From Paenibacillus sp. FSL K6-1330 (GTDB taxonomy: Bacteria; Bacillota; Bacilli; Paenibacillales; Paenibacillaceae): a DNA stretch of 64,000 bases. The translations under genes were made by a program, and so were the position numbers. Below, one piece after another: positions 3,308 through 63,942 of this stretch. Positions within the stretch are counted from its first letter, which is position 1; the number at the start of each line of letters is the position of its first letter. The notes beneath the pieces were generated by a model. It saw nothing but the letters and a program-made list of their open reading frames with translations, had not been told where the DNA came from and did no database searches. Location of the stretch: the NCBI RefSeq assembly GCF_037976825.1, contig NZ_CP150269.1, positions 5,345,501 through 5,409,500 on the forward strand. The letters run 5' to 3'.

Positions 3308-4048
3308 TTATGCCTCGCTTAGATAGACATACAAATCTCCCAGGGTGATTGCATGGCCGCGCGCTTGAATTTCTTTCATATAAGCCGCCCACAACCGGGC
3401 AGTCATGCGCGCGTCGGACAGAGCATGATGCCGGCCCTCCACCGGGATGCCGCTGCTCCGCAGCAGCTCATCCAGACTGTAGTCCTTCTGCTCAGGATAT
3501 AATCTCTGTGCGAGCATCATCGTATCGAGGAGCCGATGGGTTAATCGGACCTTCGATGTCTTCCACAAGGCTGCGTTCAGGAATCCACGGTCATGCGCAG
3601 CGGCATGGGCAACAAGCACCCTGCCTCCGATAAATGCCATGAAATCATGCAGCCCCTCCATTAAAGGCGGGGCTGCATCAACCATATGCTGCGTAATTCC
3701 CGTCAGCTCAGCAATGAATGGAGGAATAGGAGCACCGCTGTTAACGATCATATGAAAGGTTTCGTTCTCGATCACTTGCTCGCCGATGACCTTGATAGCA
3801 CCGAATGACAAAATTTCATCACCGTGCTGGTGATTGAACCCCGTCGACTCCAGATCAAATACGACAACCTCCAGCTCGTCCAGCGGGGTACCCAGAACCT
3901 CCGGCCTCCGGTTATCCTTCATCTGGGATCGGATGAAGGCCAGCTGCTGCGCTGTCTGCGCGCCGCGCATGGAGGCGATGGCGGAATTAAAGTCACCCAA
4001 GCGGAGTGATCTCCAGAACCCACCGTTCGATTGTCCCGGTTCAGTCAT
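3308..4048 (-). CDS. DEDDh 3'-5' exonuclease (DnaQ-like)
   Basis: This 246-residue protein has the three DnaQ-superfamily motifs: ExoI with D65 and E67 in FDLESTG, ExoII around AHAAAHDRGFLN, and ExoIII HHALSDARMTA supplying the His and last Asp. It therefore should be a two-metal 3'-5' exonuclease of the polymerase III epsilon type. The first 55 residues form an extra helical segment absent from the minimal domain. Its start overlaps the stop of the upstream DUF294 gene by four bases (ATGA), so the two are translationally coupled. DnaQ-like domains are known to occur next to DUF294/CBS proteins in other bacteria; the substrate is unknown. Confidence 0.85.
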   Translation of the reverse strand: MTEPGQSNGGFWRSLRLGDFNSAIASMRGAQTAQQLAFIRSQMKDNRRPEVLGTPLDELEVVVFDLESTGFNHQHGDEILSFGAIKVIGEQVIENETFHMIVNSGAPIPPFIAELTGITQHMVDAAPPLMEGLHDFMAFIGGRVLVAHAAAHDRGFLNAALWKTSKVRLTHRLLDTMMLAQRLYPEQKDYSLDELLRSSGIPVEGRHHALSDARMTARLWAAYMKEIQARGHAITLGDLYVYLSEA

Positions 4049-11084: not shown

Positions 11085-11104
11085 CCATTCATTGGTTTAA
11101 CGAA

Positions 11105-11290
11105 ACCCGCCTATGCCGTCCGGTAAACATTGTCTTCGAACCTGCATTAGCAGGTGGGTGACCGCAGAACCGCTTATGAATTCCCCTTGTCATATAGACA
11201 GGGCATTTCAGCCACGATTACGTATAGATCTCCCTAGACATCGTCATTGGTTCAAAACAACGGAAAACCGAAACGAACATCGCAGGATGT
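11105..11290 (-). ncRNA. ssrS: 6S RNA
   Basis: A transcript of about 185 bases that should mimic an open promoter and bind the housekeeping RNA polymerase. The 5' CCUGCGAUG pairs with 3' CAUAGGCGGG to form the closing stem; the 3' side also carries GGUUCGAAG and GGACGGCAU, closely like the 3' half of E. coli 6S RNA. Between them lies a long, weakly paired region expected for the central bubble. It has its own promoter immediately upstream and a terminator about 20 bases downstream, and contains no plausible reading frame. The ends are estimates: the 5' end comes from the promoter and the 3' end from the closing stem. Confidence 0.75.
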
Positions 11291-11296
11291 AGTCTT

Positions 11297-47190: not shown

Positions 47191-47386
47191 GAACCCACCG
47201 CTTCCTTCTTGTCAAATTCATGGTTTACAGTGATACCATATGTCATTTCGGATCGAAATGTACCTTAAATCTTACCCCAATTCCCCCCTATCTTCAACAA
47301 GGGTGCCGCTCCCAAAAGACTGTTGGTTAATTGTTCAAGTAATTGTAGGACTCTTGCGCCGGTCGCTGACCGTAGGTAGTTTATAC

Positions 47387-47392
47387 TATAAT
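47387..47392 (+). promoter_or_regulatory. candidate -10 box of nos
   Basis: TATAAT about 30 bases before the GTG start; no clear -35 at the right distance. It lies inside the longest open frame and supports the shorter start. Confidence 0.4.
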
Positions 47393-47422
47393 AAGCGCGC
47401 GTATAGTAAAGGAGAATTCTAC

Positions 47423-48520
47423 GTGAATGACAACATACATCATACCGACCTTATGGAAGCTGCGAAGCCGTTTATCGAGCTTTGTTATGCTGAATTAAAC
47501 CGCACCCCGGAAGAAGCCGAGGACCGGCTCATGAACATCCGCTCACAGATCGAGCTGACAGGTACATATGAGCATACGCTTGAGGAACTGACGCATGGAG
47601 CCAAAATGGCTTGGCGAAACAGCAACCGCTGTATCGGCAGACTGTTTTGGGATCGCCTCAAGGTATTCGATGCCAGGCACTTAACGGAGACCTCTGACAT
47701 TTTCTCGGCACTCCTTCACCATATCGAGAGTGCCACCAATGGCGGGAAAATCATGCCTACGATTACGATTTTCAAGGCTGCACGTCCAGGGGAGGCCCCG
47801 CTTATTATCAAAAACCACCAGTTGATTCGGTATGCCGGTTACGAAACGGCCGAGGGGACGATTGGCGATCCGGCTTCCCTATCCTTCACGAAGGAATGCA
47901 TGGAGCTGGGGTGGCAGGGAGACTTGACCGACTATGATGTGCTGCCGCTGGTTGTGCAGCAGGGGAATGAGCCGCCGGAGTGGCTCGCGATACCGAAATC
48001 CTACGTGCTGGAAGTCCCTTTGGAGCATCCCGAACTTCCTGCTCTTAAAGCGGAAGGGATAAAATGGTATGGGGTGCCTCTCATCTCAGACATGCTGCTT
48101 GAAATCGGCGGCATTATGTATACGGCCGCACCGTTCAACGGCTGGTATATGGGAACCGAAATCGGAGCCCGTAACCTTGCAGATGAAGGGCGCTACAACA
48201 AGCTTCCGCTTATTGCCAAGCTGATGGGGCAGGATACTTCCAGCGAAACTACCTTATGGAGGGATCGCGCATTGGTTGAACTCAATGCTGCCGTGCTCTA
48301 TTCCTACAAAAAAGCGGGCGTCAGCATAGTGGACCATCATTCGGCAGCAGCCCAATTCGGTTTGTTTGAACAGCGCGAACAGCAAGCCGGGCGGGAGCTC
48401 ACAGGGGATTGGAGTTGGTTGATTCCTCCGGTCTCGCCGGCTACAACCCATATTTTCCACACCTCTTATCATAACGACATCCGTTCGCCGAATTTCCATT
48501 ACAGGAGCAAAGGGCAGTAA
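47423..48520 (+). CDS. nos: bacterial nitric oxide synthase (oxygenase domain)
   Basis: A 365-residue heme enzyme that oxidises arginine to citrulline and NO, using cellular flavodoxin-type reductases because no reductase domain is attached. The proximal heme ligand is C70 in [12 protein letters not shown]; the substrate Glu is in [13 protein letters not shown]. The GTG start has AAAGGAG eight bases upstream; the open frame continues about 180 bases further upstream, through the -10 box, and that part is rejected. NO protects Bacillus from oxidants and some antibiotics. Confidence 0.95.
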
Positions 48521-50706: not shown

Positions 50707-52143
50707 TCACGACCCTAATTGGTTCAGCATGTTCTGGGCAATCCAGACGCCGGCGGCTCCTGCCTGAGCAAGACCCCTGGTAATTCCGGCACCATCCCCG
50801 CCACAATAAAGACCCTTGATTTCCGTCTCGAAAGACTCCGACAGCTTCGGTCTTGCGGAGTAGAACTTGGCCTCCACCCCGTAGAACAGCGTGTGCTCTG
50901 ACGCAATCCCCGGCGTGACTTTATCAAGCGCTTCGACCATCTCGATCAGGCTTTTCATAGTGTTGTACGGCAGCACCAAGCCAAGATCTCCAGGAACCGC
51001 TTCCTTCAGCGTCGGCTCCAGAAACCCTTCACGAATTCGGCCTTCGGTGGATCTCCGGCCGCGGAGCACGTCACCGTATTTCTGTACAATGACCCCGCCG
51101 CTGGATAGATCGTTAGCCCGCTTGCATATTTCACGCGCATATTCGTTAGGCTTGTCAAACGGCTCCGTAAACTTATGGGATACGAGCAGCGCAAAGTTCG
51201 TATTGGCTGATCCCAAAGCCGGATCTTTGTAGGAATGGCCATTGGCTGCCATAACTCCACTATGGTTCTCAACCACAACATGACCGGAAGGATTGCTGCA
51301 GAACGTACGCACCCGGGTTCCAACCGAGGTGTTAAAGATGAATTTGCCTTCATACAAATGCTCATTGATCTCGCGCATGACCACATCCGAGGTTTCCACC
51401 CGAACGCCCACGTCCACTTGGTTATTATGCATTTTCAATCTGCGTTTTTTTAATATACCGGTCAACCAGGCTGAGCCGTCACGCCCAGGGGCAACCATCA
51501 CTAAATTCGCCTCATGGACCTCCCCGCCTTTCATTGTGATACCGGTAATACGGTGGGTTCCGTCTTCTTTGACGGTGACAATGTCCTCGACTTCCGCCCG
51601 GAAAGCCATATCAATTCTTGTCTTCAAATATTCATATATCGACTTTAGAATCTCCAAATTCTGCTCAGTTCCAAGATGTCTTACCTGAGCGCGAAGCAGC
51701 TTCAGGCCCGCTGCGTATCCACGGTGTTCAATATCCCGAATCGCATGGGTTGTCGGGTCCGTAATGGCAGGTGTCGCTCCATGCTCCAGATTGATGGCGT
51801 CGACATATTGGATGAGCTCCATGACTTTGGAGCCAGGCAAATAATCGGTCATCCAGCCGCCAAACTCCGTGGTGATGTTGAATTTGCCGTCGCTGTATGC
51901 TCCCGCCCCACCAAACCCGGCTGTAATCGAACAAGCCGGCAAACAACCGGCAAATTCCTTGCGTCCTACTGCCGGTGGACAGAGCTTAATCTTCTCTTCC
52001 AGGATCGGGCAGCTTCTCCGGTAAATATCATGTCCCTTGTCAACCAGCAGCACCTTGCTTCCTGGTGACTTCAATGTCAGTTCATAACAAGCGAAAATGC
52101 CAGCCGGACCGGCACCAACAACGATAACATCATATTTGCTCAT
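50707..52143 (-). CDS. FAD-dependent oxidoreductase (COG2509-like)
   Basis: A 478-residue flavoprotein. The FAD dinucleotide fold is at the N terminus (VVGAGPAGIFACYEL), an Arg-linked CP motif appears in KIKLCPPAVGRKEFAGC, and a second nucleotide-facing segment ends GLYCGGDGAGITRGLAQAGAAG. This resembles the uncharacterised FAD-dependent dehydrogenase group COG2509. The substrate is unknown. The start ATG has AGGGGGG six bases upstream. It is controlled by the purine-family riboswitch described next, so its substrate or product probably relates to purine state. Confidence 0.85.
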   Translation of the reverse strand: MSKYDVIVVGAGPAGIFACYELTLKSPGSKVLLVDKGHDIYRRSCPILEEKIKLCPPAVGRKEFAGCLPACSITAGFGGAGAYSDGKFNITTEFGGWMTDYLPGSKVMELIQYVDAINLEHGATPAITDPTTHAIRDIEHRGYAAGLKLLRAQVRHLGTEQNLEILKSIYEYLKTRIDMAFRAEVEDIVTVKEDGTHRITGITMKGGEVHEANLVMVAPGRDGSAWLTGILKKRRLKMHNNQVDVGVRVETSDVVMREINEHLYEGKFIFNTSVGTRVRTFCSNPSGHVVVENHSGVMAANGHSYKDPALGSANTNFALLVSHKFTEPFDKPNEYAREICKRANDLSSGGVIVQKYGDVLRGRRSTEGRIREGFLEPTLKEAVPGDLGLVLPYNTMKSLIEMVEALDKVTPGIASEHTLFYGVEAKFYSARPKLSESFETEIKGLYCGGDGAGITRGLAQAGAAGVWIAQNMLNQLGS

Positions 52144-52195
52144 CATATCCCCCTGTGTGTTTGACTGTCGCTTTGCGCACAACACTTCCGGGCAC

Positions 52196-52249
52196 AAAAA
52201 AAATCCTGCTCCGAATAGGTATGCTTGCGCATCCTATTCGTAGTCAGGA
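52196..52249 (-). terminator. riboswitch expression platform (ligand-disrupted terminator)
   Basis: On the minus strand CGAATAGG-ATGC-GCAA-GCAT-A-CCTATTCG forms a strong hairpin, extended by TCCTG/CAGGA and followed by eight Ts. Its 5' arm reuses the P1 3' strand and part of P3 of the aptamer, so aptamer and terminator exclude each other. Confidence 0.8.
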
Positions 52250-52303
52250 ATTTAAGGTCCCTTGTAGAAACCCCTGAACCTTATTTTCAGGGATATACGA
52301 ATA
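52235..52303 (-). promoter_or_regulatory. purine-family (guanine-type) riboswitch aptamer
   Basis: Read on the minus strand, P1 is TATTCGTA/TACGAATA (8 perfect pairs), P2 CCCTGAA/TTCAGGG with loop AATAAGG, J2/3 GTTTCTAC, P3 with loop CCTTAAA, and J3/1 GAC. In xpt numbering the ligand contacts U22, U47, U51 and C74 are all present; C74 predicts guanine-type and not adenine-type recognition. Departures are U instead of A at 24 and A instead of C at 54, which breaks the usual 54-72 pair. The loop-loop GG/CC kissing pairs are kept. Confidence 0.85.
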
Positions 52304-52332
52304 AGCATCATTTTTCTTTATCAACCGTAGTT

Positions 52333-52361
52333 AATATAAAACGAATTCACGAATGAGTCAA
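52333..52361 (-). promoter_or_regulatory. promoter of the riboswitch-oxidoreductase transcript
   Basis: On the minus strand: TTGACT, 17 bases, TATATT, with transcription starting about 25 bases upstream of the aptamer. Confidence 0.7.
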
Positions 52362-52553
52362 GTTAAATAATGTTTATCGTTCGTGTTTATCCTCTTATAT
52401 TCTGGTTTTACATGCGATTCTCCCCGAGTAAAAACATCAAAAGACGAACAATACATTATAATAATCAAATAAACGAGTAGGTCCATCGGACCATTACATC
52501 GGACTTATAAATCATGTAACAACGAAATGGAAACAATTGTTTTATGTTTGGCT

Positions 52554-52608: not shown

Positions 52609-53205
52609 ATGCCTACAAAACTGCAGCAAGAAAAACACTCCATTGAGGCGTGGTCCCTGATCAATCGTAAATATTTGGGGAAAGGTGTGCGAGTCAAGCG
52701 CTTTCGCCGGCCGACCCGCTGCCAAATTCGCAACCGCGTCCTACTAGCCGTACTTATGGCCAACGATATCAAGTTGTCGCAATTGGCCGAGGAACTGGGA
52801 GTATCCTCCCGTAGTGTCAGCGCCTGGGTATATGAGGGACGCGTTCCCGGAAAAAACAACCTGGAGAAGGCTTGTGACTACTTGGGTTATCCCCGCCACA
52901 TACTCTTCAGAGAGGAACTGCTGGACAAGTCACCTTTAATCTGTCAGCCGGCACCTTCCCGCTTCATGAAACGCACCCTGACACGCTCACCGGTTAGCAA
53001 CCGGATTCTGACAGGTCTGTGCATGGTTCATGATTTGTCGGTAAGCGATGTAAGCCGCTGGATCGGCGTGCATCCTGGCACATTCCGCAAATGGCTGCAC
53101 CAGGGCACCGTACCATCCCCAGCGTTCCAGGAAAAAGCGGAGCAGTTCTTCCGTATCCCTAAATCTGTTCTATTCGCAGATTGCGCATTAAAGCAAAATT
53201 CCTAA
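52609..53205 (+). CDS. double helix-turn-helix (XRE-like) regulator
   Basis: A basic 198-residue protein with two similar halves. Each has a helix-turn-helix (about residues 45-85, LSQLAEELGVSSRSVSAWVYEG, and about 135-175, VSDVSRWIGVHPGTFRKWLHQG) followed by the same ...P....EKA..(Y/F)(L/F)..P..(I/V)LF pattern, pointing to internal duplication. The basic N terminus (VRVKRFRRPTRCQIRNR) may also touch DNA. Targets are unknown. It starts after AGGAGG, divergent from the riboswitch gene. Confidence 0.78.
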   Translation: MPTKLQQEKHSIEAWSLINRKYLGKGVRVKRFRRPTRCQIRNRVLLAVLMANDIKLSQLAEELGVSSRSVSAWVYEGRVPGKNNLEKACDYLGYPRHILFREELLDKSPLICQPAPSRFMKRTLTRSPVSNRILTGLCMVHDLSVSDVSRWIGVHPGTFRKWLHQGTVPSPAFQEKAEQFFRIPKSVLFADCALKQNS

Positions 53206-54635: not shown

Positions 54636-55367
54636 CTAATTCAAATACTTGATAAGCTTGGACCAAAAGGCCGAATAGTGCTCCCAGTTCATAAACTCCA
54701 ACGATCCCCAGTGCGGCGAACAATCGCTTGCAAAGGCTGCCGTCTTGCCGGCTCCGTAGGTTCCAACCGTCAGAATGGCATCGCCTTCATGGCTTAGCAA
54801 TTCCTCTGCCCCCGGCTTGGCTGACAGTTTATTATAACCCAGCAGCCTAGGCCATTCCCCCAAATCATTTACCAGTGGATGCGGCTGCGATACGACAGGC
54901 GAGAAGCCGCTCGGCATCTCTACCCGATCATCTTTGTCCATCATGACTACCGGCAGCACATCGGCCAATATCGTATTTCTATAATTGGCTTTTCCTTCGA
55001 TTCCCATGAAGGTCAGGTAACCGCCAACCATCAGCAAGCCGCCCCCTTCAGCGACATACTGCTTCATTAGCTCAAGGGCGTTCGGAATGATTTGCATTTG
55101 ATAGAAGGTTGGATTTTGGAGCAGGAATGTGTTGGCCCCTACGTCACTAAGTACAATCGCATCATAGGCCTTTAGCTCTTCCAACGATTGAGGGAAGCGC
55201 ACCTGTACTTCATGCGCAGGCATATAGGTGACGTCAATTCCCTCCTGACGCAGACAGGAGAGCAAATAGGTTGCTCCCTCCTCGTACTTGGTCGAGGTAA
55301 AGCTGTCATAACCTTTCGTATGAATCATATGCACAACCCAAGATTCGCCAACAAATAAGATTTTCAT
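54636..55367 (-). CDS. GATase1-like (ThuA/COG5426-type) protein
   Basis: The 243-residue protein has a class I glutamine-amidotransferase-like fold: opening MKILFVGESWVVHMIHTKG, LKAYDAIVLSDVGANTFL, and GGGLLMVGGYLTFMG where the nucleophile loop would lie. The catalytic cysteine of real amidotransferases is absent there, so it is more likely a binding or hydrolase-like relative. The ATG with GGAGG eleven bases upstream is used. It is last in the operon and ends at the tRNA fragment. Confidence 0.75.
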   Translation of the reverse strand: MKILFVGESWVVHMIHTKGYDSFTSTKYEEGATYLLSCLRQEGIDVTYMPAHEVQVRFPQSLEELKAYDAIVLSDVGANTFLLQNPTFYQMQIIPNALELMKQYVAEGGGLLMVGGYLTFMGIEGKANYRNTILADVLPVVMMDKDDRVEMPSGFSPVVSQPHPLVNDLGEWPRLLGYNKLSAKPGAEELLSHEGDAILTVGTYGAGKTAAFASDCSPHWGSLEFMNWEHYSAFWSKLIKYLN

Positions 55368-55433
55368 CAGTTCAAGCACCTCCGTATTGTATATCACCAG
55401 GCCCTATACCTACAGGCCGTCTTGATCCCGTTT

Positions 55434-56744
55434 TTACGCTTCCGCGATTTCACACCAGTCCACAATCGTTTTGGCAATCATCTTGACCGCTTGAATCACT
55501 TCATCGACAGGTGTAAATTCGTCGCTATGATGGGCAAGGCTTGGGTCGCCTGGTCCAAAGTTAACGGTCGGAATGCCGACGTTCACCGGCCAGCCCATAT
55601 CGGTATGGAAGCCCAATCCTTCGATCTTCCCTTCCTCTCCAATAGCCTTCAAGGATTGTACACAAGTCTGAACAAAGGGATGAGACACATCCGTTTCTGC
55701 ACAATCGGCATCCACCAGCCATTCGATTTCCGGCATATGCTCACGCAGCCAAGGATCTGATTCCGATACCTCGCGCAGAAAGTCCGTCAATTCCTTCTTT
55801 ACGTTGCCGCCTACAAGCTTCTCGTCACGCTCCGATGGCAAGTATTGCGCGTTAAATACGATTTCCGCCTCATTCGCGAAGGAGGTCGGATATTCCCCAG
55901 CGTTTAATTGCGCGACATGCACCTGACAAGGGATCGCCAAGTAGGGATGAGTCTTGCTGACAGCCCATTGCTCATTCAAGCGGTCCAAATGCTCCAGAAT
56001 ATATCTCGCTTTCTTAATCGCATCCACCGCGCCGCCGTCCTGCCAATCCGCTTGCGGCATCTCAATATGACCGCTGCGGCCTTGGATTTTGATCTTCCCC
56101 CATAAAATCCCACGGCACAGCGGGGCGATCGTTAGCGAGGTCGGTTCTGTCAAAATGCATGCATCTGCTCGATATCCATGGTGGATGAAATCAAGCGCCC
56201 CCATGCCTCCCGCTTCTTCATCGACGACCGTGCCGACAACAACCGGACCTTTAAGCTTAAACCCGCTGCGAAGAATAGCTTCGACGGCCATAATCATGGC
56301 TGCGACTCCGCCCTTCATATCAACGGTGCCGCGGCCGTACATCTTCCCGTCAATCACTTTGCCCTCGAACGGATCGACCGTCCACTTTGAGCCTGCCATG
56401 ACGACATCAATATGGCCAAATAAGAGCAAGGACTTGCCTTCCGTTCCTTTGCCAAACGTAGCCGCCAGATTGGGTCTGCCCGTAAAATCTCTTCCCGCAT
56501 AATAGCCCGCCATGCCTTCATATTGCTTCAGTTCATCAGCGACGGGCTCCCAAATCTCGATGTCCGCACCCAGTTTCTCCAGCTTGCCGGCAATAAATTG
56601 TTGCAGGTCCTTCTCTTTCGATGGCCCTGGCTCCTCGAAGAACCAGGGGTTCACGCTCGGAATTTGAATAAGCTGCTGTAAAAATTGAATAATTTCATCT
56701 TGATGATTCTCGATCCAATCCATCACTCTTTGTTCTTGGTTCAT
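55434..56744 (-). CDS. M20-family (ArgE/DapE-type) amidohydrolase
   Basis: A 436-residue dinuclear zinc hydrolase: LLFGHIDVV, GRGTVDMKGG and the catalytic Glu pair in VVDEEAGG, with a lid domain between. Family members deacylate amino acids or hydrolyse ureido and N-carbamoyl compounds. The substrate is unknown; neighbours suggest a ureide or amide derived from an imported sugar-like compound. AAAGGAG precedes the ATG. Confidence 0.88.
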   Translation of the reverse strand: MNQEQRVMDWIENHQDEIIQFLQQLIQIPSVNPWFFEEPGPSKEKDLQQFIAGKLEKLGADIEIWEPVADELKQYEGMAGYYAGRDFTGRPNLAATFGKGTEGKSLLLFGHIDVVMAGSKWTVDPFEGKVIDGKMYGRGTVDMKGGVAAMIMAVEAILRSGFKLKGPVVVGTVVDEEAGGMGALDFIHHGYRADACILTEPTSLTIAPLCRGILWGKIKIQGRSGHIEMPQADWQDGGAVDAIKKARYILEHLDRLNEQWAVSKTHPYLAIPCQVHVAQLNAGEYPTSFANEAEIVFNAQYLPSERDEKLVGGNVKKELTDFLREVSESDPWLREHMPEIEWLVDADCAETDVSHPFVQTCVQSLKAIGEEGKIEGLGFHTDMGWPVNVGIPTVNFGPGDPSLAHHSDEFTPVDEVIQAVKMIAKTIVDWCEIAEA

Positions 56745-56834
56745 CTCTCTCTCTCCTTTGTGGCAGCACTCTCCTGATACCGCATGAATCCGCAGCTGCC
56801 GTAAGCAAGAGTATCAGGAGCCGTGCCTGCTCCC

Positions 56835-57344
56835 TTATTCGAATCGAACAGTGCTTCCGTTCATAAAATCAACCCACGGATTGATCATCTCATCCCCGAA
56901 TTTATCCTTTTTCTTCTCGATGCCGAACATATAACGGGCGTCGTCCGCAGCCGGGTAGGCCGGGCTATGCCAGACCCCCCGATGGATGACGATAGCTTGT
57001 CCGGGCTTGATTCGGAAGCACTTGACGGTGGAAGCATCAGGGCTTTCATCCGGATTGTCAATATCCATGCACAATGCTACAGGCTGCACAATCTCACGAT
57101 CAAAGGTAAGCAGAAGCTCTTCACGACTGACATGCCTCTCCATAGCCGTGACGACAAATTCACGTCGCTTGGTGATCACAAGGCCAAATCCGATGGGCTC
57201 CCATACGTCCAGCATTTGAACATAGCTCCAGCAATCCCACCCGTCACCGGATTTGGAAGGGTCAATCGCCGGCACATCCACCACTTTGCCATAGGGAGCA
57301 AAAGCCTCCTCCGTTAAATCTTCTATCTGCACCTTATACTCCAT
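56835..57344 (-). CDS. ureidoglycolate lyase-like (AllA-family) protein
   Basis: A 169-residue cupin-like protein following AllA: EEAFAPYGKVV, MERHVSREELLLTF and IKPGQAIVIHRGVWHSPAYP, with His residues placed as in the AllA active site. AllA splits ureidoglycolate into glyoxylate and urea in purine catabolism. No other allantoin gene is nearby, so it may act on a related ureide. It lies between the ABC importer genes and the M20 gene. Confidence 0.78.
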   Translation of the reverse strand: MEYKVQIEDLTEEAFAPYGKVVDVPAIDPSKSGDGWDCWSYVQMLDVWEPIGFGLVITKRREFVVTAMERHVSREELLLTFDREIVQPVALCMDIDNPDESPDASTVKCFRIKPGQAIVIHRGVWHSPAYPAADDARYMFGIEKKKDKFGDEMINPWVDFMNGSTVRFE

Positions 57345-57368
57345 TAAGGCCGCCTCCTAAGGGTGTTA

Positions 57369-58409
57369 TTAGAAATCAAAACTGTCCACATTATCGTTCG
57401 TGACTTCAAGCGTGCCAATAAAGACGCTTTGTCCGTCTACCTTCACTGTTCCAATCGTCGGAATCTCCATGCCGTCTTTGATTTCCTTGCCTTGAGCCAG
57501 TTGATCCATAATATAGACCGTTACGTAAGCCAGCTTGCCCGGATCCCAAATAATATCTGTTTTGATCGTGCCGTTCTTGATGTAATTTTTCACGACGCTC
57601 GGCACGGCAATGCCTGTAATGGCCACTTGGTTCTTCTCCAAAGTGCCTGCCTTTACAGCTTGCTCCACGACCTCCGCGGCTGCAGGAGGTTCGCCGCCTG
57701 CAAATCCGATTATGCCTTTCAGATCAGGGTAGGTTTGAAGCAGGTTTTGCGCATTGGCATACGCCTTCTGTTGATCGTCGTCGCTCGCGACAGTCGTTAC
57801 GACCTCAATCTCCGGATAGTTGGCTGCAAAATAAGCTTTAGCCGCATTGGATTTGGCAATCTGGTTTTGCGAGCCCAGACCGGCTACCATGAACGCGACC
57901 TGTCCTTTGCCGCCGATTTCCTCTCCGATCGTTTTGGCCAGAAGCTCCCCGATTTCTTGGTCTGTAGCCGGAGCTACATAATATTGGCGGTCTGTATCCG
58001 GCGCGTCACTGTCCCAGGTCACAATATTGACGCCTTGGCCTGCCGCCTTCTTGAACACAGGGCCTACCGCTTTCGCATCATTGGGCGATACGCCGATGCC
58101 GCTTACTTTGCGGGTCAGCATATCCTGAATCATATTAATTTGCTTGGAGGAATCCGCCTCTGTCGGCGCATTGAACAGAACCTTTACCTTCAAATCGGCC
58201 TCCGCCTTCTTCGCGCCCTTCTCAGCCGCCGCCCAATAAGCAGGGCCGATGGACTTTGGATTCATAAAGTAAGTTCTGGATCCCGAAGCTCCCTGGTTCG
58301 TTTTGCCTCCGTTATCCGTTTGATTCCCGCTTGTACTTCCGCATGCTGCCAAATTCAAAGCCAATACGCCCGTCAGTAACGTCAATGCCAGCTTTTTCAT
58401 AGGTTTCAC
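57369..58409 (-). CDS. sugar-type ABC substrate-binding lipoprotein (LsrB/RhaS-like)
   Basis: A 346-residue lipoprotein (lipobox LAACGST, Cys near residue 23). The two-domain periplasmic-binding fold is close to LsrB/RhaS: TWDSDAPDTDRQYYVAPATDQEIG, NLLQTYPDLKGIIGF and an ending DNVDSFDF. Such proteins bind AI-2, rhamnose or related furanose/pyranose sugars. The 4-base overlap with the permease gene shows coupling. Confidence 0.88.
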   Translation of the reverse strand: MKPMKKLALTLLTGVLALNLAACGSTSGNQTDNGGKTNQGASGSRTYFMNPKSIGPAYWAAAEKGAKKAEADLKVKVLFNAPTEADSSKQINMIQDMLTRKVSGIGVSPNDAKAVGPVFKKAAGQGVNIVTWDSDAPDTDRQYYVAPATDQEIGELLAKTIGEEIGGKGQVAFMVAGLGSQNQIAKSNAAKAYFAANYPEIEVVTTVASDDDQQKAYANAQNLLQTYPDLKGIIGFAGGEPPAAAEVVEQAVKAGTLEKNQVAITGIAVPSVVKNYIKNGTIKTDIIWDPGKLAYVTVYIMDQLAQGKEIKDGMEIPTIGTVKVDGQSVFIGTLEVTNDNVDSFDF

Positions 58410-59350
58410 TCTCCATTGAATTTTTTGTTTCCTACAGCAAGCAGAAGCAATGCCCCTAATATGACTGCCTGGTAAAGCACGGATACACCTAACAGATTCA
58501 ATCCATTACGCAAAAACACGATGATTAGCAGCCCGACAAATGTGCCTGAAAGACTCCCCCTTCCTCCAAAAATATGTGTGCCCCCTATCAGAGTCGCTGT
58601 AATGACATCGAGCTCTATATTGGTACCCGATGTCGCCTCTGCGCTTGCCAGACGCGACACCAGAAATATACCCGCCAAGGCCGAAAACAATCCGCTAAGC
58701 ATAAAGAGGATAAACCGGATGCGTACGACCGAGATACCTGAGTAGCGGACAACCTCTTCATTGTTGCCAATGCCGTACACATAAGTGCTGAATCTTGTTT
58801 TCTTCATGACAAAGCTGGCCAGAAGGAACATCACCACTAGGAAAATCGCATTAACCGGAATGCCGCCGACATACTGCTGGCCCATAAAGTAGAATGCATC
58901 CGGAAAGCCGCTAATGGGTCTGCCCTGATTGATTACGTAGACCAGACCCCGCAGCATCACGAGCATGCCAATGGTGACAACGATCGCCTGCATTCGGTGC
59001 CTTGCGATCAGATAGCCGTTAACCGCCCCGCACAGCAAGCCAGCCAGCAGCCCAATGATCACGCTGATCCATATATCGAGGCCCCGCTCAAAGGCAACTC
59101 CCATACTTACAGCGGAGAAAGCGAGAATTGAGCCTACCGAAAGATCCATGGCACCGGATATGATGATCATGGTCATCGGTATGGCGATCAGCCCTACTTC
59201 AACCATCTGGTTCAGCACATTCATAAAGTTAGTGACGGTCAGGAAATAGGGAGACAAGAAGCTGAACAGCACGATAATGACGAGCAGCAGCAGCATTTGA
59301 ACGATCAGCTTATTTCCCCTAAGCGGGAACCGGCTTGTCCATGTACTCAT
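58406..59350 (-). CDS. sugar ABC permease (second, LsrD/RhaQ-like)
   Basis: The 314-residue permease has eight to ten helices and the BPD_transp_2 pattern (MTMIIISGAMDLSVGSILAFSAV, GGTHIFGGRGSLSGTFVG). With the other permease it makes a heterodimer. Start and stop overlap neighbours by four bases. Confidence 0.9.
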   Translation of the reverse strand: MSTWTSRFPLRGNKLIVQMLLLLVIIVLFSFLSPYFLTVTNFMNVLNQMVEVGLIAIPMTMIIISGAMDLSVGSILAFSAVSMGVAFERGLDIWISVIIGLLAGLLCGAVNGYLIARHRMQAIVVTIGMLVMLRGLVYVINQGRPISGFPDAFYFMGQQYVGGIPVNAIFLVVMFLLASFVMKKTRFSTYVYGIGNNEEVVRYSGISVVRIRFILFMLSGLFSALAGIFLVSRLASAEATSGTNIELDVITATLIGGTHIFGGRGSLSGTFVGLLIIVFLRNGLNLLGVSVLYQAVILGALLLLAVGNKKFNGE

Positions 59351-60309
59351 ACCAAATCCCCCTCTTTTCCTTTGTTTTGCCTTATACGCTGCAGCGTATT
59401 AATGACAATTGCCAGAATAATCAGAAAACCGGTTGCAGCATCAACCCAGAACGGTGAAACCTTGGATATAATGAGCCCATTTTTGACAATGCCCATAAAG
59501 AGCACACCCAGCATCGTTCCGGCTATGGTGCCGACTCCTCCAAAGATGCTTCCCCCGCCGATAAGAACGGCTGCCATGACTTCAAACGCTAAACCGCTGC
59601 CTGCTGTCGAGGCTTGCACACTGCCTACCTTTGCTGCGAAAATAACCGAGGCGATCCCGACTAGCAAGCCAGTTAATACATAGACCTTAAACTTGGTTCG
59701 GGCTACGCTGATTCCCGCCAGCTTGGCTGCTGGTCCATTCCCGCCAATGGAGTAGATTCTTCGGCCCTCACGGGCGAATTTCATTAAATAAATGAAGACC
59801 GCGATAAGAATGACGGCTATTAGCAGCGGGAAGGAAATGCCGAGCAAATACCCTTGTCCGAAGAATCGAAATCCTCCCGGAAAGTTCGTCATCCAGGTTC
59901 CTCCGCTGATCCCTACCGCAATGCCCCGGAAGATATACATGGTGGCCAAGGTGACGATGATGTCCGGTATTTTCCTAACCGCAATGAAATAACCATTGAC
60001 CAGGCCGCATAGAACCCCGATGCATATCCCCATAGCGGCTGCAATCCATGGATGGATGCCATGGCTGAGAAACAATCCGACAGAAGTCGCTGTCACTGCC
60101 AGCACGGAGCCGACGGATAAATCCATGCCCCCCAGCAGAATGACCATCGTCATCCCGATCGCCACGATGAACATGGAGATGTTCTGATCCAGAATCAGCC
60201 TTATATTTTCGAATTGCAAGAAGTCAGGAGATATAATGGAAAACAACAGCGTAACGAGAATGGTAAATAAAATAATAGGCGCTTCATGCACATTTAGTAG
60301 GCGTTTCAT
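59347..60309 (-). CDS. sugar ABC permease (first, LsrC/RhaP-like)
   Basis: A 320-residue BPD_transp_2 permease with the MTMVILLGGMDLSVGSVLAV and GGGSIFGGVGTIAGTMLGV motifs. The presence of two different permeases, in place of one RbsC, is typical of Lsr and Rha systems. Confidence 0.9.
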   Translation of the reverse strand: MKRLLNVHEAPIILFTILVTLLFSIISPDFLQFENIRLILDQNISMFIVAIGMTMVILLGGMDLSVGSVLAVTATSVGLFLSHGIHPWIAAAMGICIGVLCGLVNGYFIAVRKIPDIIVTLATMYIFRGIAVGISGGTWMTNFPGGFRFFGQGYLLGISFPLLIAVILIAVFIYLMKFAREGRRIYSIGGNGPAAKLAGISVARTKFKVYVLTGLLVGIASVIFAAKVGSVQASTAGSGLAFEVMAAVLIGGGSIFGGVGTIAGTMLGVLFMGIVKNGLIISKVSPFWVDAATGFLIILAIVINTLQRIRQNKGKEGDLV

Positions 60310-61817
60310 ATGCGGCCTCCTTCTGAAAGCGGATGTGAAGCACGCTGCAGCAATTGTTCCTGATCAGCCTCGCCATGTGCAAATTCATGCACGATCGTGC
60401 CTTTGTATAGCACCAGGATCCGATCACAGAGTCCAATCACCTCCGGCATTTCGGACGAAATCAGCAGGATGCTCAAGCCTTCCTGGGCCAGTTGATGAAT
60501 AATATTGTAGATCTCCGCCTTCGCTCCGACGTCAACTCCCCGGGTCGGCTCCTCCAGAATAAGAATATCGGGATTCGCTGCAAGCCATTTGCCAATCACA
60601 ACCTTTTGCTGGTTGCCGCCACTCAGAAAGTCTACGCTTTGGCCATCGTTGGGCGCTTTTATTCGAAGCTTCTCCATATACTCCTTGCTCATCTCTTTAA
60701 TCCGCGCCTCGTCCAGCACCGTATACTTTGAAAGCTGCGGCAGCATCGGAATGGACAGATTTTGCCGAATTGACATCGGTTTAATGATGCCTTGACGGTG
60801 ACGATCCGGCGGAACATAAGCAATCTTCTTTGCTTTGGCCTGACTCGGATTATTGATTTTCACCGCTGCGTCACGAATAGTGATTTCACCCGTTCCCCGC
60901 TTTAGACCGAATAAACGCTCGGCAATCGTGTGCGTGCCCGAACCCGGAACGCCGAACAGCCCTAATATCTCTCCTTTTCGCAGCTCAAAAGATACACAGT
61001 GTGCGGAATCGAGCGACAACTGCTCGACCTTCAGCACAACCTCTTGATCGTGCTTCTGTTCCCTGACCGGATATAGCTGGCCAACCTCTTTGCCCACCAT
61101 CATTTGAATCAAGCTCTGTTCGGTAACCTCTTCGATTCCACGGGTATCAATCTTGGCTCCATCCCGCAGCACCGTTACCTTATCCGCAATTTCAAATATT
61201 TCCTTCATGCGGTGAGAGACATACACGATGGCTACGCCCTGCGCCCGGAGCCGGTTGACCACATCAAACATTTTTTTCACTTCGTTTTCCGGAAGCGCCG
61301 CTGACGGTTCATCCATAATGAGCACATCCGCCTGAAAAGACAGCGCTTTCGCAATTTCGATTACTTGCTGGCTGTGAACGCCAAGATGCCGGACCTCCTG
61401 GCGGACATCAATTTCACCTCCCCCTATGGAATCAACCAAACGCTGCGCCTCGTCATACATTTTGGACCACTGTATCCGGCCGAATTTGCCCACCATTTCC
61501 GGACGGTCGATAAATATATTTTCCGCGGCTGTCAAATTAGAAAACAAATTGAATTCCTGGTGGATAATGGACACTCCTTGCCGCTGGGCGTCAAGCGGGT
61601 TGCCGAATGTCACTTCTTTGCCCTTCAGTCTGATCGTTCCTTGCGTCGGTGAATATACGCCGGACAAAATTTTCATCAGCGTGGATTTCCCTGCTCCGTT
61701 CTCCCCCATAAGCGCATGGACTTCGCCCGGATAGAGCTCAAAGCTAACATCTGATAACGCTTTGACCCCTGGGAATTCCTTGCTGATGCCTTCCATTTTC
61801 AAAACCGGATGCCTCAT
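60306..61817 (-). CDS. sugar ABC ATPase with two nucleotide-binding domains
   Basis: The 503-residue CUT2-type ATPase has two fused domains. In the N half, GENGAGKST and LIMDEPSAALPENEV are intact, with an HLGVHSQQ variant in place of the ABC signature. In the C half, Walker A is degenerate (GVPGSGTHT), yet FLSGGNQQK and LEEPTRGVDVG are kept, as is usual for RbsA-type proteins. The ATG has AGGAGG upstream. Confidence 0.92.
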   Translation of the reverse strand: MRHPVLKMEGISKEFPGVKALSDVSFELYPGEVHALMGENGAGKSTLMKILSGVYSPTQGTIRLKGKEVTFGNPLDAQRQGVSIIHQEFNLFSNLTAAENIFIDRPEMVGKFGRIQWSKMYDEAQRLVDSIGGGEIDVRQEVRHLGVHSQQVIEIAKALSFQADVLIMDEPSAALPENEVKKMFDVVNRLRAQGVAIVYVSHRMKEIFEIADKVTVLRDGAKIDTRGIEEVTEQSLIQMMVGKEVGQLYPVREQKHDQEVVLKVEQLSLDSAHCVSFELRKGEILGLFGVPGSGTHTIAERLFGLKRGTGEITIRDAAVKINNPSQAKAKKIAYVPPDRHRQGIIKPMSIRQNLSIPMLPQLSKYTVLDEARIKEMSKEYMEKLRIKAPNDGQSVDFLSGGNQQKVVIGKWLAANPDILILEEPTRGVDVGAKAEIYNIIHQLAQEGLSILLISSEMPEVIGLCDRILVLYKGTIVHEFAHGEADQEQLLQRASHPLSEGGRI

Positions 61818-61971
61818 CGTTCGACCTCCTATTCACCTTACTGAGCTGCTTTTTGGATAACTTTAACAAGACTAAGCGTTAACTCACCAAAGTCTGAGAA
61901 TACAGGTGTCCCTTTCCAGGAAAGAAACCCCGTATATTACCTTTTTATAACGGTCTTATTAACCTATTGTT
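61818..61971 (-). other. gap between kinase and importer genes
   Basis: 154 bases with a CTTTCCTGGAAAG palindrome and a GTTAACGCTTA element that loosely resembles the LacI/cre half-site pattern. A second promoter or operator is possible; the matches are weak. Confidence 0.35.
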
Positions 61972-62880
61972 CTACACCGTAAGAAACGATTGTACCTGTT
62001 CTTCTGTCGGAATCGAGCTTTGGGCACCTGGTACAGATACAGCCAGCGCCGATGCCGCTGTCGCGTAGCACAGACAATCGCGCAGCTCCGCTCCCGTTAC
62101 ATATTTAGCTGCGAACGCTCCGATGAAGGTGTCTCCGGCCGCTGTCGTATCCACTACGTCAACCGAAAATGCGGTTAATGTGATTTGCCTTCCGGATTGG
62201 TCCATATAGATAGAGCCTTTGCTTCCCAAAGTAATAATGAGATGAGGAATGCCGTCATTAAGCAGTTTCTTTCCGGCCTCCAGGGCCTGGCTGCTTCCTT
62301 CAATACGGATGCCGCTCAGCTCCTCCGCCTCGACCTCATTCAGAATGAGGAAAGTGACCTTGCTCAGTTGGCTCTGGTCAAACCCGTCAATTGGAGCTGG
62401 ATTCATAAATACCGGAATACGTTGCTCTGCCGCTTTATCCAGCACCCTTTGATTGGCTGCCGATGATATTTCATTTTGCAGCAAAATGACGTCGAAACCA
62501 GAGAGGTCCAATTTATCTACCTCGTCTGCACCATACCTTCCATTAGCGCCTGAGGATAAAATAATGTTGTTCTCCCCTGCTCCATCGATTGTAATCAAAG
62601 CAAGCCCCGTCATACACGGCTTCTCGATAACATGATCAAGATCAATCCTAGCCTCCGCCAATTCCCTGCGTATGTCGATCCCAAAGGAATCCGAGCCCAG
62701 TGCACCCGCCATAGCGACCGAAGCTCCGGAGCGAGACGCGGCAACCGCCTGGTTAGCCCCCTTGCCCCCAATAAAGAAACGGGTCTCGTTGCCCTGTATC
62801 GTTTCGCCGGGAATGGGGTGACGCTCAACCTGTGTGACAATGTCCATATTCATGCTGCCCACTACCAAGATTTTCGCCAT
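61972..62880 (-). CDS. rbsK: ribokinase-family (PfkB) sugar kinase
   Basis: A 302-residue cytoplasmic kinase: GGKGANQAVAASR near residue 40, the FMNPAP segment and the catalytic loop DTTAAGDTFIGAFAA. The sequence is closest to ribokinases, so ribose or a related sugar is the likely substrate. It sits between the LacI regulator and the importer. In Lsr systems the kinase is of another family (FGGY), so the pathway is not a standard AI-2 one. Confidence 0.88.
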   Translation of the reverse strand: MAKILVVGSMNMDIVTQVERHPIPGETIQGNETRFFIGGKGANQAVAASRSGASVAMAGALGSDSFGIDIRRELAEARIDLDHVIEKPCMTGLALITIDGAGENNIILSSGANGRYGADEVDKLDLSGFDVILLQNEISSAANQRVLDKAAEQRIPVFMNPAPIDGFDQSQLSKVTFLILNEVEAEELSGIRIEGSSQALEAGKKLLNDGIPHLIITLGSKGSIYMDQSGRQITLTAFSVDVVDTTAAGDTFIGAFAAKYVTGAELRDCLCYATAASALAVSVPGAQSSIPTEEQVQSFLTV

Positions 62881-62898
62881 AGCGCTCTCCCCCCAGTA

Positions 62899-63915
62899 TT
62901 ACTCCTTCAGTCTTTTGACTGAGCCGAATTTCTTCAATTCAACATCCAATATCATTTTTTTCAGCTTCGTCCGCTCTTTAGGCTCTCTCTTGATTTTTTG
63001 AATGAGCATTTCCGCCGCTTGAATTCCCATCTCTCTTGTCGGTCTGCTGACCACGGTCACTCTTGGCTGCACGAACTGGGCAAGCTCGTTATCATCAAAG
63101 CCAATTAAAGAAATATCCTCTCCGATTCGGAGATTCAAATCGCGTATCGCTTTAATCGCACCCGTACAGATGACGTTGTTAGCCGCAAATATAGCTGTCG
63201 GTGGCTGCTCGGATTGCATAAGCTCCGTCGTAAATCGGTAGCCGTCCTCTTCCAGCCAATTCCCCTGCTTGTGATAGGCAGGATCGGGTGTCAGGCCCCT
63301 CTCATGCATAGCTTGACGATATCCCCAATAACGGTCCTTGCCATCGTTAAAATCATGCGCCCCATCTATAATGGCAATGCGTTCATGACCATAGTCCACG
63401 AAATGCTTGGTCGCTTCGTACGCGCCGCGGAAGTTGTCGATTAAGACACCATCGTGGCCGCAATCGTTGATATAACGGTCGACAAGGATGGTAGGCTTGC
63501 GAATGTTCCGGTAAAACTCTGCATCCTTATGCGTACCGATTAAGATGATTCCATCCACATTTTTCCCTAGGAAGCTTTCAAAAAATTCTTCCTCCTCTGC
63601 CTCATCGCTATTCGTGGAGACTACTAGAGTAAAGAAGCCTTCCTTCTTGGCCACCTCTACCATGCCGCCAATGACTGCGGTGTAGAAGGGATTCTGAATC
63701 TCCGGCACCACGACGGACAGCATGTTGGTTTTTTTATTGACCATCGATGCAGCCATCGTATTCGGAACGAAGTTCATCTCTTCTATTATTTTGAGTATTT
63801 TCTTGCGAGTGGCTTCACTTACGCGATCTCGTCCATTCATCACTCGGGATACCGTAGCTACAGATACATTTGCTTGCTTGGCTACGTCCTTAATTGTAAT
63901 TTCCTTGTTCGTCAT
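62899..63915 (-). CDS. LacI-family transcriptional regulator
   Basis: A 338-residue repressor with an N-terminal helix-turn-helix (ITIKDVAKQANVSVATVSRVMNG) and a periplasmic-binding-like effector domain. It probably represses the operon it heads and responds to the imported sugar or its phosphate. The ATG with AGGAAGGGGGG upstream is chosen over a GTG two codons earlier that lies in the site. The operon promoter is at the window edge. Confidence 0.92.
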   Translation of the reverse strand: MTNKEITIKDVAKQANVSVATVSRVMNGRDRVSEATRKKILKIIEEMNFVPNTMAASMVNKKTNMLSVVVPEIQNPFYTAVIGGMVEVAKKEGFFTLVVSTNSDEAEEEEFFESFLGKNVDGIILIGTHKDAEFYRNIRKPTILVDRYINDCGHDGVLIDNFRGAYEATKHFVDYGHERIAIIDGAHDFNDGKDRYWGYRQAMHERGLTPDPAYHKQGNWLEEDGYRFTTELMQSEQPPTAIFAANNVICTGAIKAIRDLNLRIGEDISLIGFDDNELAQFVQPRVTVVSRPTREMGIQAAEMLIQKIKREPKERTKLKKMILDVELKKFGSVKRLKE

Positions 63916-63942
63916 AGCCACCCCCCTTCCTTTAGTTTAAAG

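Follow-up and report, generated by a model that had tools for sequence, protein, structure and literature searches.

The locus described here raises the question of why a guanine-type riboswitch should precede the gene of an FAD-dependent protein, and of which purine reaction such a protein would serve. It lies in a window of 64,000 nucleotides (contig NZ_CP150269.1, positions 5,345,501 to 5,409,500) from the soil bacterium Paenibacillus sp. FSL K6-1330, and all coordinates below count from the first base of this window. A preliminary description had suggested turnover or detoxification of a purine, which was right in direction and too vague; the comparative evidence points to the conversion of GMP to IMP. 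It is probable that the aptamer, which overlaps a terminator, forms a guanine-ON switch for a likely non-orthologous GMP reductase, as predicted from comparative analysis of the locus. With less assurance, we also favour the wider proposal that the flavoprotein family constitutes a second type of GMP reductase, one that depends on flavin and has replaced guaC across much of Bacillota, the guanine-ON riboswitch marking the GMP-to-IMP step under either enzyme and the RNA control staying in place.

The FAD-dependent protein, a candidate non-orthologous GMP reductase of 479 amino acids, is encoded on the minus strand at 50707-52146, with the start at 52146 and the stop codon ending at 50707. It carries the C-terminal domain PF21688 (37.7 bits, with a cut-off of 27), and its N-terminal FAD-binding motif, GxGPxG, is invariant in 46 sequences. 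Cysteines 46, 56, 68 and 72 of the protein are conserved. The IMPDH/GMPR domain PF00478 was not among its Pfam matches, and NCBIfam gave no match over the cut-off. The nearest solved structure, VP0956 (PDB entry 3nlc), comes from Vibrio and is itself functionally uncharacterised; its identity to the window protein is 23-26%, and the fold search returned general FAD reductases and dehydrogenases among the matches listed. To our knowledge, no activity has been assigned to this flavoprotein family. COG2509 is mentioned once in PMC10432406, and the open-licence literature searched yielded nothing on the function of the FAD gene of the window or on a flavin GMP reductase. Two genomes of a phylum-wide draw, G506 and G537, each contain two full-length copies of the FAD gene, with 71-72% identity to the window protein.

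The regulatory span on the minus strand runs from the -35 element through the last base of a run of eight U (52361-52196). The proposed order of promoter, purine aptamer, terminator and gene on this strand is borne out by the promoter scan and the sequence. The sigma-70-type promoter (52333-52361) consists of a -35 element TTGACT (52361-52356) and a -10 element TATATT (52338-52333), with 10 of 12 matches and a spacer of 17 nt, and ranked first of nine sites in a 4-kb scan in which shuffled sequences averaged 5.2 sites. A ribosome-binding site, AGGGGG, can be read at 52149-52154 (minus strand).

The Rfam purine-model search that had been proposed as a check gave a match to RF00167 of 76.2 bits (52221-52320, minus strand), well over the gathering score of 37 and covering the full length of the model. 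The three-way junction of P1, P2 and P3 with the conserved core of this family is present: the 5' strand of P1, UUAUUCGUA, lies at 52304-52296, its 3' strand, UACGAAUAG, which is common to the terminator, lies at 52242-52234, the P2 hairpin (52272-52292) pairs 52292-52286 with 52278-52272, and the P3 hairpin (52246-52262) pairs 52262-52258 with 52250-52246. The strands of P1 and P2 follow from the Rfam match and the fold, those of P3 from the fold, and covariation accords with the 3' strand of P1 and with both hairpins. The earlier call of a guanine type held, in that U22, U47, U51 and C74 are all present. Since the specificity base is C74 (52243, minus strand, within the 5' arm of the terminator) and not the U74 of adenine riboswitches, the aptamer is of the guanine type, and guanine is its predicted ligand.

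Together with C74, an eight-nucleotide J2/3 without insertion places the aptamer with the guanine-I class. It shares the core nucleotides and RF00167 with the xpt, purE and pbuG type, whereas those switches turn off genes for synthesis, salvage and uptake and the window RNA is laid out as an ON switch. In the adenine riboswitch of B. subtilis pbuE (ydhL), which controls an efflux pump, the terminator overlaps the aptamer: the 3' strands of P3 and P1 lie in the 5' arm of the terminator, giving predicted ligand-ON control of transcription. The window RNA has the same layout, with the 3' strand of P1 inside the 5' arm, but it carries C74 and precedes an FAD enzyme. The host genome contains six RF00167 matches, the window riboswitch among them, of which a relative of the pbuE type (L005) carries U74. 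According to PMC9295807, ON guanine riboswitches (guanine-II) with an insertion in J2-3 have already been predicted in Paenibacillus, mostly ahead of phosphoribosyltransferase genes, and the genus also has variant purine classes with other ligands. The window RNA resembles guanine-II in genus, in ligand and in its predicted ON direction; membership in guanine-II was nevertheless rejected because its plain J2/3 lacks the one-nucleotide insertion. Among the 58 leaders aligned (see below), one, L075, has an extra C following A52. Membership in xanthine-II, which is defined by U51G, was likewise rejected, U51 being present in all 58 leaders.

The overlapping intrinsic terminator (52196-52250, minus strand) was traced from the sequence, the fold and covariation. 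Its lower stem pairs UCCUG (52249-52245) with CAGGA (52208-52204), its upper part pairs CGAAUAGG (52240-52233) with CCUAUUCG (52219-52212), the apex is an AUGC/GCAU pairing closed by a GCAA loop, and the eight U (52203-52196) follow CAGGA immediately. The 5' arm thus reads UCCUG, ACUA (A73, C74, U75 and A76) and CGAAUAGG, opposite CCUAUUCG, GAG and CAGGA, so that A73 of the window leader is unpaired in an ACUA/GAG internal loop. UCCUG is mostly the 3' strand of P3 and includes G72, and the CGAAUAGG arm contains seven of the nine bases of the 3' strand of P1. The preliminary description was therefore correct about the overlap and in error about its size, given there as six of eight bases; the hairpin that it drew stands as well, but its limit does not, as the 5' arm can extend upstream to UCCUG. 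Without the UCCUG/CAGGA stem, 8 nt would separate the hairpin from the U run. The terminator was absent from the output of the consensus terminator scan. When folded, the leader (129 nt, with the last U omitted) has a stability z score of -5.3, with none of 200 shuffles as good, and the CGAAUAGG hairpin takes the place of P1; the UCCUG/CAGGA stem is confined to the centroid, the minimum-energy structure retaining P3. The aptamer alone (81 nt) folds as P1/P2/P3. On these models, the terminator and the ligand-bound aptamer would be mutually exclusive and could not coexist. Because the 5' arm includes the 3' strand of P3, C74 and the 3' strand of P1, ligand-ON is the natural reading of the layout, and this is the direction that we infer.

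The leader is present by motif in all 80 of the closest named orthologues retrieved (82-99% identity), 121-417 nt upstream of the gene, the best being the P. lautus protein at 99% identity; the host thus seems to be P. lautus or closely related to it. These loci come from Paenibacillus, Brevibacillus, Cohnella, Saccharibacillus, Ammoniphilus, Caldalkalibacillus, Chengkuizengella and one strain named Bacillus. The ligand-ON layout of the preliminary description gains from the fact that the overlap was found in all 80 and that both folds covary, the direction itself being predicted. The motif expression was used for initial screening: three of its hits, L148, L228 and L229, were not confirmed by Rfam, L213 was flagged on the expression only, and L199 and L200, both of which were found by Rfam, escaped it. 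The Rfam gathering score was passed by all 17 of the 80 leaders tested, in one case (L030) barely, at 37.1. The alignment of 58 leaders comprised the window, 53 of the 80 and four guaC leaders; leaders more than 93% alike were dropped, and L042 was excluded for an insertion in the terminator. The latter (P. zeisoli, 3803-3949 of its locus) has about 45 additional nucleotides within the 3' arm.

U22, U47, U51 and C74 are invariant in the 58 leaders. In the aptamer fold, 91.4% of the alignment cells are paired and 89 show double changes, where shuffles give 25.1; in the terminator fold, 84.8% are paired and 68 show double changes, where shuffles give 19.9. Controls in which the partners were slid reached at most 22 and 19 double-change cells, respectively. 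The middle of the terminator is weak, two of its pairs being unpaired in 26 and 22 leaders. No neighbouring family is common to more than 19 of the 80 close loci, and the leader and the gene therefore move as a unit; the genes downstream in the window itself (a Dabb protein and others) gave no functional lead.

Farther away, among other Bacilli (about 49-78% identity), an Rfam purine riboswitch stands at the gene in one of 42 orthologues (L163), a 35% paralogue (L184) having been left out of the set without a riboswitch. In the family of L163 (f36), a riboswitch is found at the FAD gene in five of the six genomes examined (L163, L196, L197, L199 and L200, with L198 lacking it). The f36 aptamers have C74 and score 53-62 bits, without an overlapping P1/P3 terminator, and apparently use a different expression platform; judged by eye, the 5' strand of P3 could pair in L199 and L200 with a GGGAGCC-U stretch farther along the leader. 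At one further locus, L151, a purine riboswitch lies about 3 kb away from the FAD gene.

The step from GMP to IMP is normally catalysed by the GMP reductase GuaC. GuaC (sought in other genomes as the TIGR01306 type) is IMPDH-like, with PF00478, whereas the window protein is an FAD-binding flavoprotein with PF21688, yet the same metabolic step is predicted for both, PurR-type boxes stand at many of both genes and the riboswitch is shared by some guaC genes. Of 299 Bacilli genomes, 104 gave a match to the FAD gene and 113 one to guaC, and a single genome has both where 39.3 would be expected from counts that ignore kinship. In this sole double genome (G287), the FAD gene begins at residue 32, and no FAD-binding motif was found within the 900 nt before it. 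A draw of 100 genomes of the genus gave 74 full-length FAD genes and nine guaC genes without overlap, against an expected 6.7, again ignoring kinship; this count leaves aside a broken copy in G070 and, in G035, a paralogue of 32% identity. The G070 copy (same species as the host; contig 16, about 120289-123122) is split into three fragments, with a gap of some 1.8 kb, and is apparently broken; the search for guaC in G070 found none. Both genes occur, in different genomes, within families f1, f19 and f29 and within genera g1 and g4, and their presence in g1, g4, f19 and f29 indicates that the exchange has probably happened repeatedly. Neither gene was found in 83 of the 299 genomes, so that the GMP-to-IMP step is dispensable. 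In the phylum-wide draw, a member of the FAD family was found in 151 of 199 genomes at E 1e-60 and guaC in only two, both without the FAD gene; with so few guaC genes, the zero overlap there says little. Guanine deaminase (guaD), used as a control, shows no exclusivity of the guaC kind with the FAD gene in counts that ignore kinship: over the cut-off, the overlap is two of 12 genomes, where 4.2 would be expected (nine of the 12 being guaC genomes), and at E 1e-60 it is 20 of 52, against an expectation of 18.1. In the host genome, no guaC was found, the IMPDH/GMPR family giving one strong match of IMPDH size (559 bits) and two more at 26 bits. The host has one guanine deaminase, through which guanine can also exit as xanthine.

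The same switch is found on guaC. RF00167 was matched ahead of guaC in four of the 28 leaders run through Rfam (67-78 bits; L189 was left out), two of them from Paenibacillus genomes without the FAD gene (L194 and L195) and two from two other families (L225 and L226); the remaining 24 had no riboswitch by Rfam. All four have the overlapping terminator and can be aligned with the FAD leaders, and their aptamer cores are 80-84% identical to the nearest FAD cores and 74-78% identical to that of the adenine-type L005, the cores of L004, L006 and L151 being badly trimmed in this comparison. No guanine riboswitch ahead of guaC was reported in the open-licence literature searched. ON guanine riboswitches were previously known in Paenibacillus, as guanine-II, but, as far as this literature goes, not on the FAD gene or guaC.

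Two PurBox-like sites can be read at the promoter on the minus strand, one at 52375-52388 with a central CGAA (52383-52380) and the other at 52345-52358, between the -35 and -10 elements, with a central TTCG (52353-52350). In PMC8789054, the PurBoxes of B. subtilis are 14-bp elements with a central CGAA or TTCG, 16-17 bp apart; the cores in the window are separated by 26 nt, within the 26-27 nt by which a CGAA/TTCG pair was recognized, a spacing that agrees with the B. subtilis arrangement. Such pairs occur at the FAD gene in 50 of 80, 25 of 42 and 14 of 19 leaders, against shuffle means of 0.2-0.8, among related loci that are not independent, and at guaC in nine of nine Paenibacillus leaders and 12 of 20 others. 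The shuffles preserved base composition, with means of 0.1-0.8 across the FAD and guaC sets, and the truncated gene of G287 (L201) was excluded. Other spacings of the pair were found in at most nine of the 80 leaders. The pair was not found in 30 of the 80 close loci and was present in only nine of 60 loci of the phylum draw, and many orthologues without a riboswitch keep it, as do those that bear one. The host genome has a purR gene (380 bits). From the box pairs and this gene, the FAD gene is predicted to be a member of the PurR regulon. In B. subtilis, according to PMC8789054 and PMC4223553, this regulon covers purine synthesis, salvage and interconversion and includes both guaC and purA. 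With the riboswitch and the PurR boxes on guaC too, two unrelated enzymes can share both controls. The divergent gene at 52609-53205 (plus strand) has helix-turn-helix matches and stands beside the PurR-type promoter in five of the 80 loci.

Among 49 distant loci (43-53% identity, for the most part a single locus per family), 18 have purA directly behind the FAD gene in the same orientation, at a distance of 14-113 nt, and four of the 18 downstream proteins (L252, L255, L281 and L293) were confirmed as adenylosuccinate synthase by the family model. In the other 31, purA was not directly next, and it adjoins the FAD gene in none of 155 closer loci. Such an arrangement would form a guanine-to-adenine shunt in which the FAD protein converts GMP to IMP and PurA then converts IMP to adenylosuccinate. 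We infer a GMP reductase activity from the mutual exclusion of the FAD gene and guaC, the occurrence of the riboswitch ahead of some guaC genes, the PurR boxes and the purA operons. As the fold suggests, the nascent leader would form the terminator when no ligand is present, and transcription would halt ahead of the FAD gene. Guanine, once paired to C74, would hold P1 and P3 in place, and with the terminator arm thus occupied RNA polymerase may read on. The PurR-type operator pair would add a second condition, allowing initiation only at high PRPP, when purine nucleotides are wanted. The FAD gene would then be expressed at times of plentiful guanine and a shortage of other purines, and GMP would be converted to IMP and onward to AMP through PurA.

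Other readings of the switch have to be weighed against this one. The ligand might be a different purine whose Watson-Crick face resembles that of guanine, such as hypoxanthine, xanthine, 8-oxoguanine or 2'-deoxyguanosine. Position 73, an A in the Rfam consensus, is unusually free, being G, A and U in 32, 22 and four leaders, respectively, position 54 is A in 48 of the 58, leaving the aptamer pair 54-72 unpaired in 49, and variant classes with other ligands exist in the genus, as noted above from PMC9295807. The contacting bases are nevertheless invariant, J2/3 of the window has no insertion, and the variation at position 73 mostly follows the terminator partner (G-C in 26 leaders, A-U in 17, U-A in two, G-U type in six and other in seven), position 73 being a base with two jobs; a change of specificity through G73 is weakened by this, and another ligand seems rather improbable. 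G73 also seems, by eye, to be present in a pbuG-like riboswitch of the same genome (L006). The switch could alternatively be an OFF switch, the ligand promoting the terminator as in the xpt type and the overlap being incidental. Other guanine riboswitches of the host precede purE-like and xpt-like genes (named by reading protein starts), and purE and xpt are OFF targets in B. subtilis. A 5' arm holding C74 and the ligand-stabilized strands, with no separate antiterminator visible and with covariation backing the overlap, makes an OFF direction very improbable indeed.

With the guanine-ON switch accepted as described, the flavoprotein might still have another role in the supply of guanine or adenine nucleotides, such as the oxidation or reduction of a different purine intermediate or the making of a cofactor, and replace guaC indirectly. 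A family with no known activity, an uncharacterised nearest structure and the fold of general FAD reductases and dehydrogenases leave room for such a role, and an enzyme encoded beside purA could act anywhere near IMP or AMP; it is the near-total exclusivity with guaC, together with the same ON switch on guaC, that singles out the GMP reductase step, and we regard another role as unlikely, if deserving of attention. The exclusivity could in turn be a lineage effect without functional meaning, as most families have just one of the two genes and the counts ignore kinship. Against this stand the occurrence of both kinds in different genomes of g1, g4, f19 and f29, the truncation of the FAD gene in the sole double genome and the same kind of leader on four guaC genes, and we give a lineage effect little credence.

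If the GMP reductase reading is correct, it would provide a function for a large uncharacterised flavoprotein family, matched in three-quarters of the phylum draw as given above, would close what seems to be a gap in the interconversion of purines where guaC is missing and would represent a chemically new route for the reductive deamination of GMP. It would also give a reason for a guanine riboswitch to be an ON switch, surplus guanine nucleotides being disposed of towards adenine nucleotides.

Elsewhere in the window, a cluster on the minus strand (54636-63921) encodes a LacI-type regulator, a ribokinase-like PfkB protein, an ABC transporter, a PF04115 ureidoglycolate lyase-like protein, an M20 peptidase and a GATase1-like protein, and possibly forms an operon for the breakdown of a ureide or a nucleoside-like compound. 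A bacterial nitric oxide synthase oxygenase domain (PF02898, 529.6 bits) is encoded at 47240-48520 on the plus strand, and a 6S RNA (85.4 bits) lies at 11100-11291 on the minus strand.
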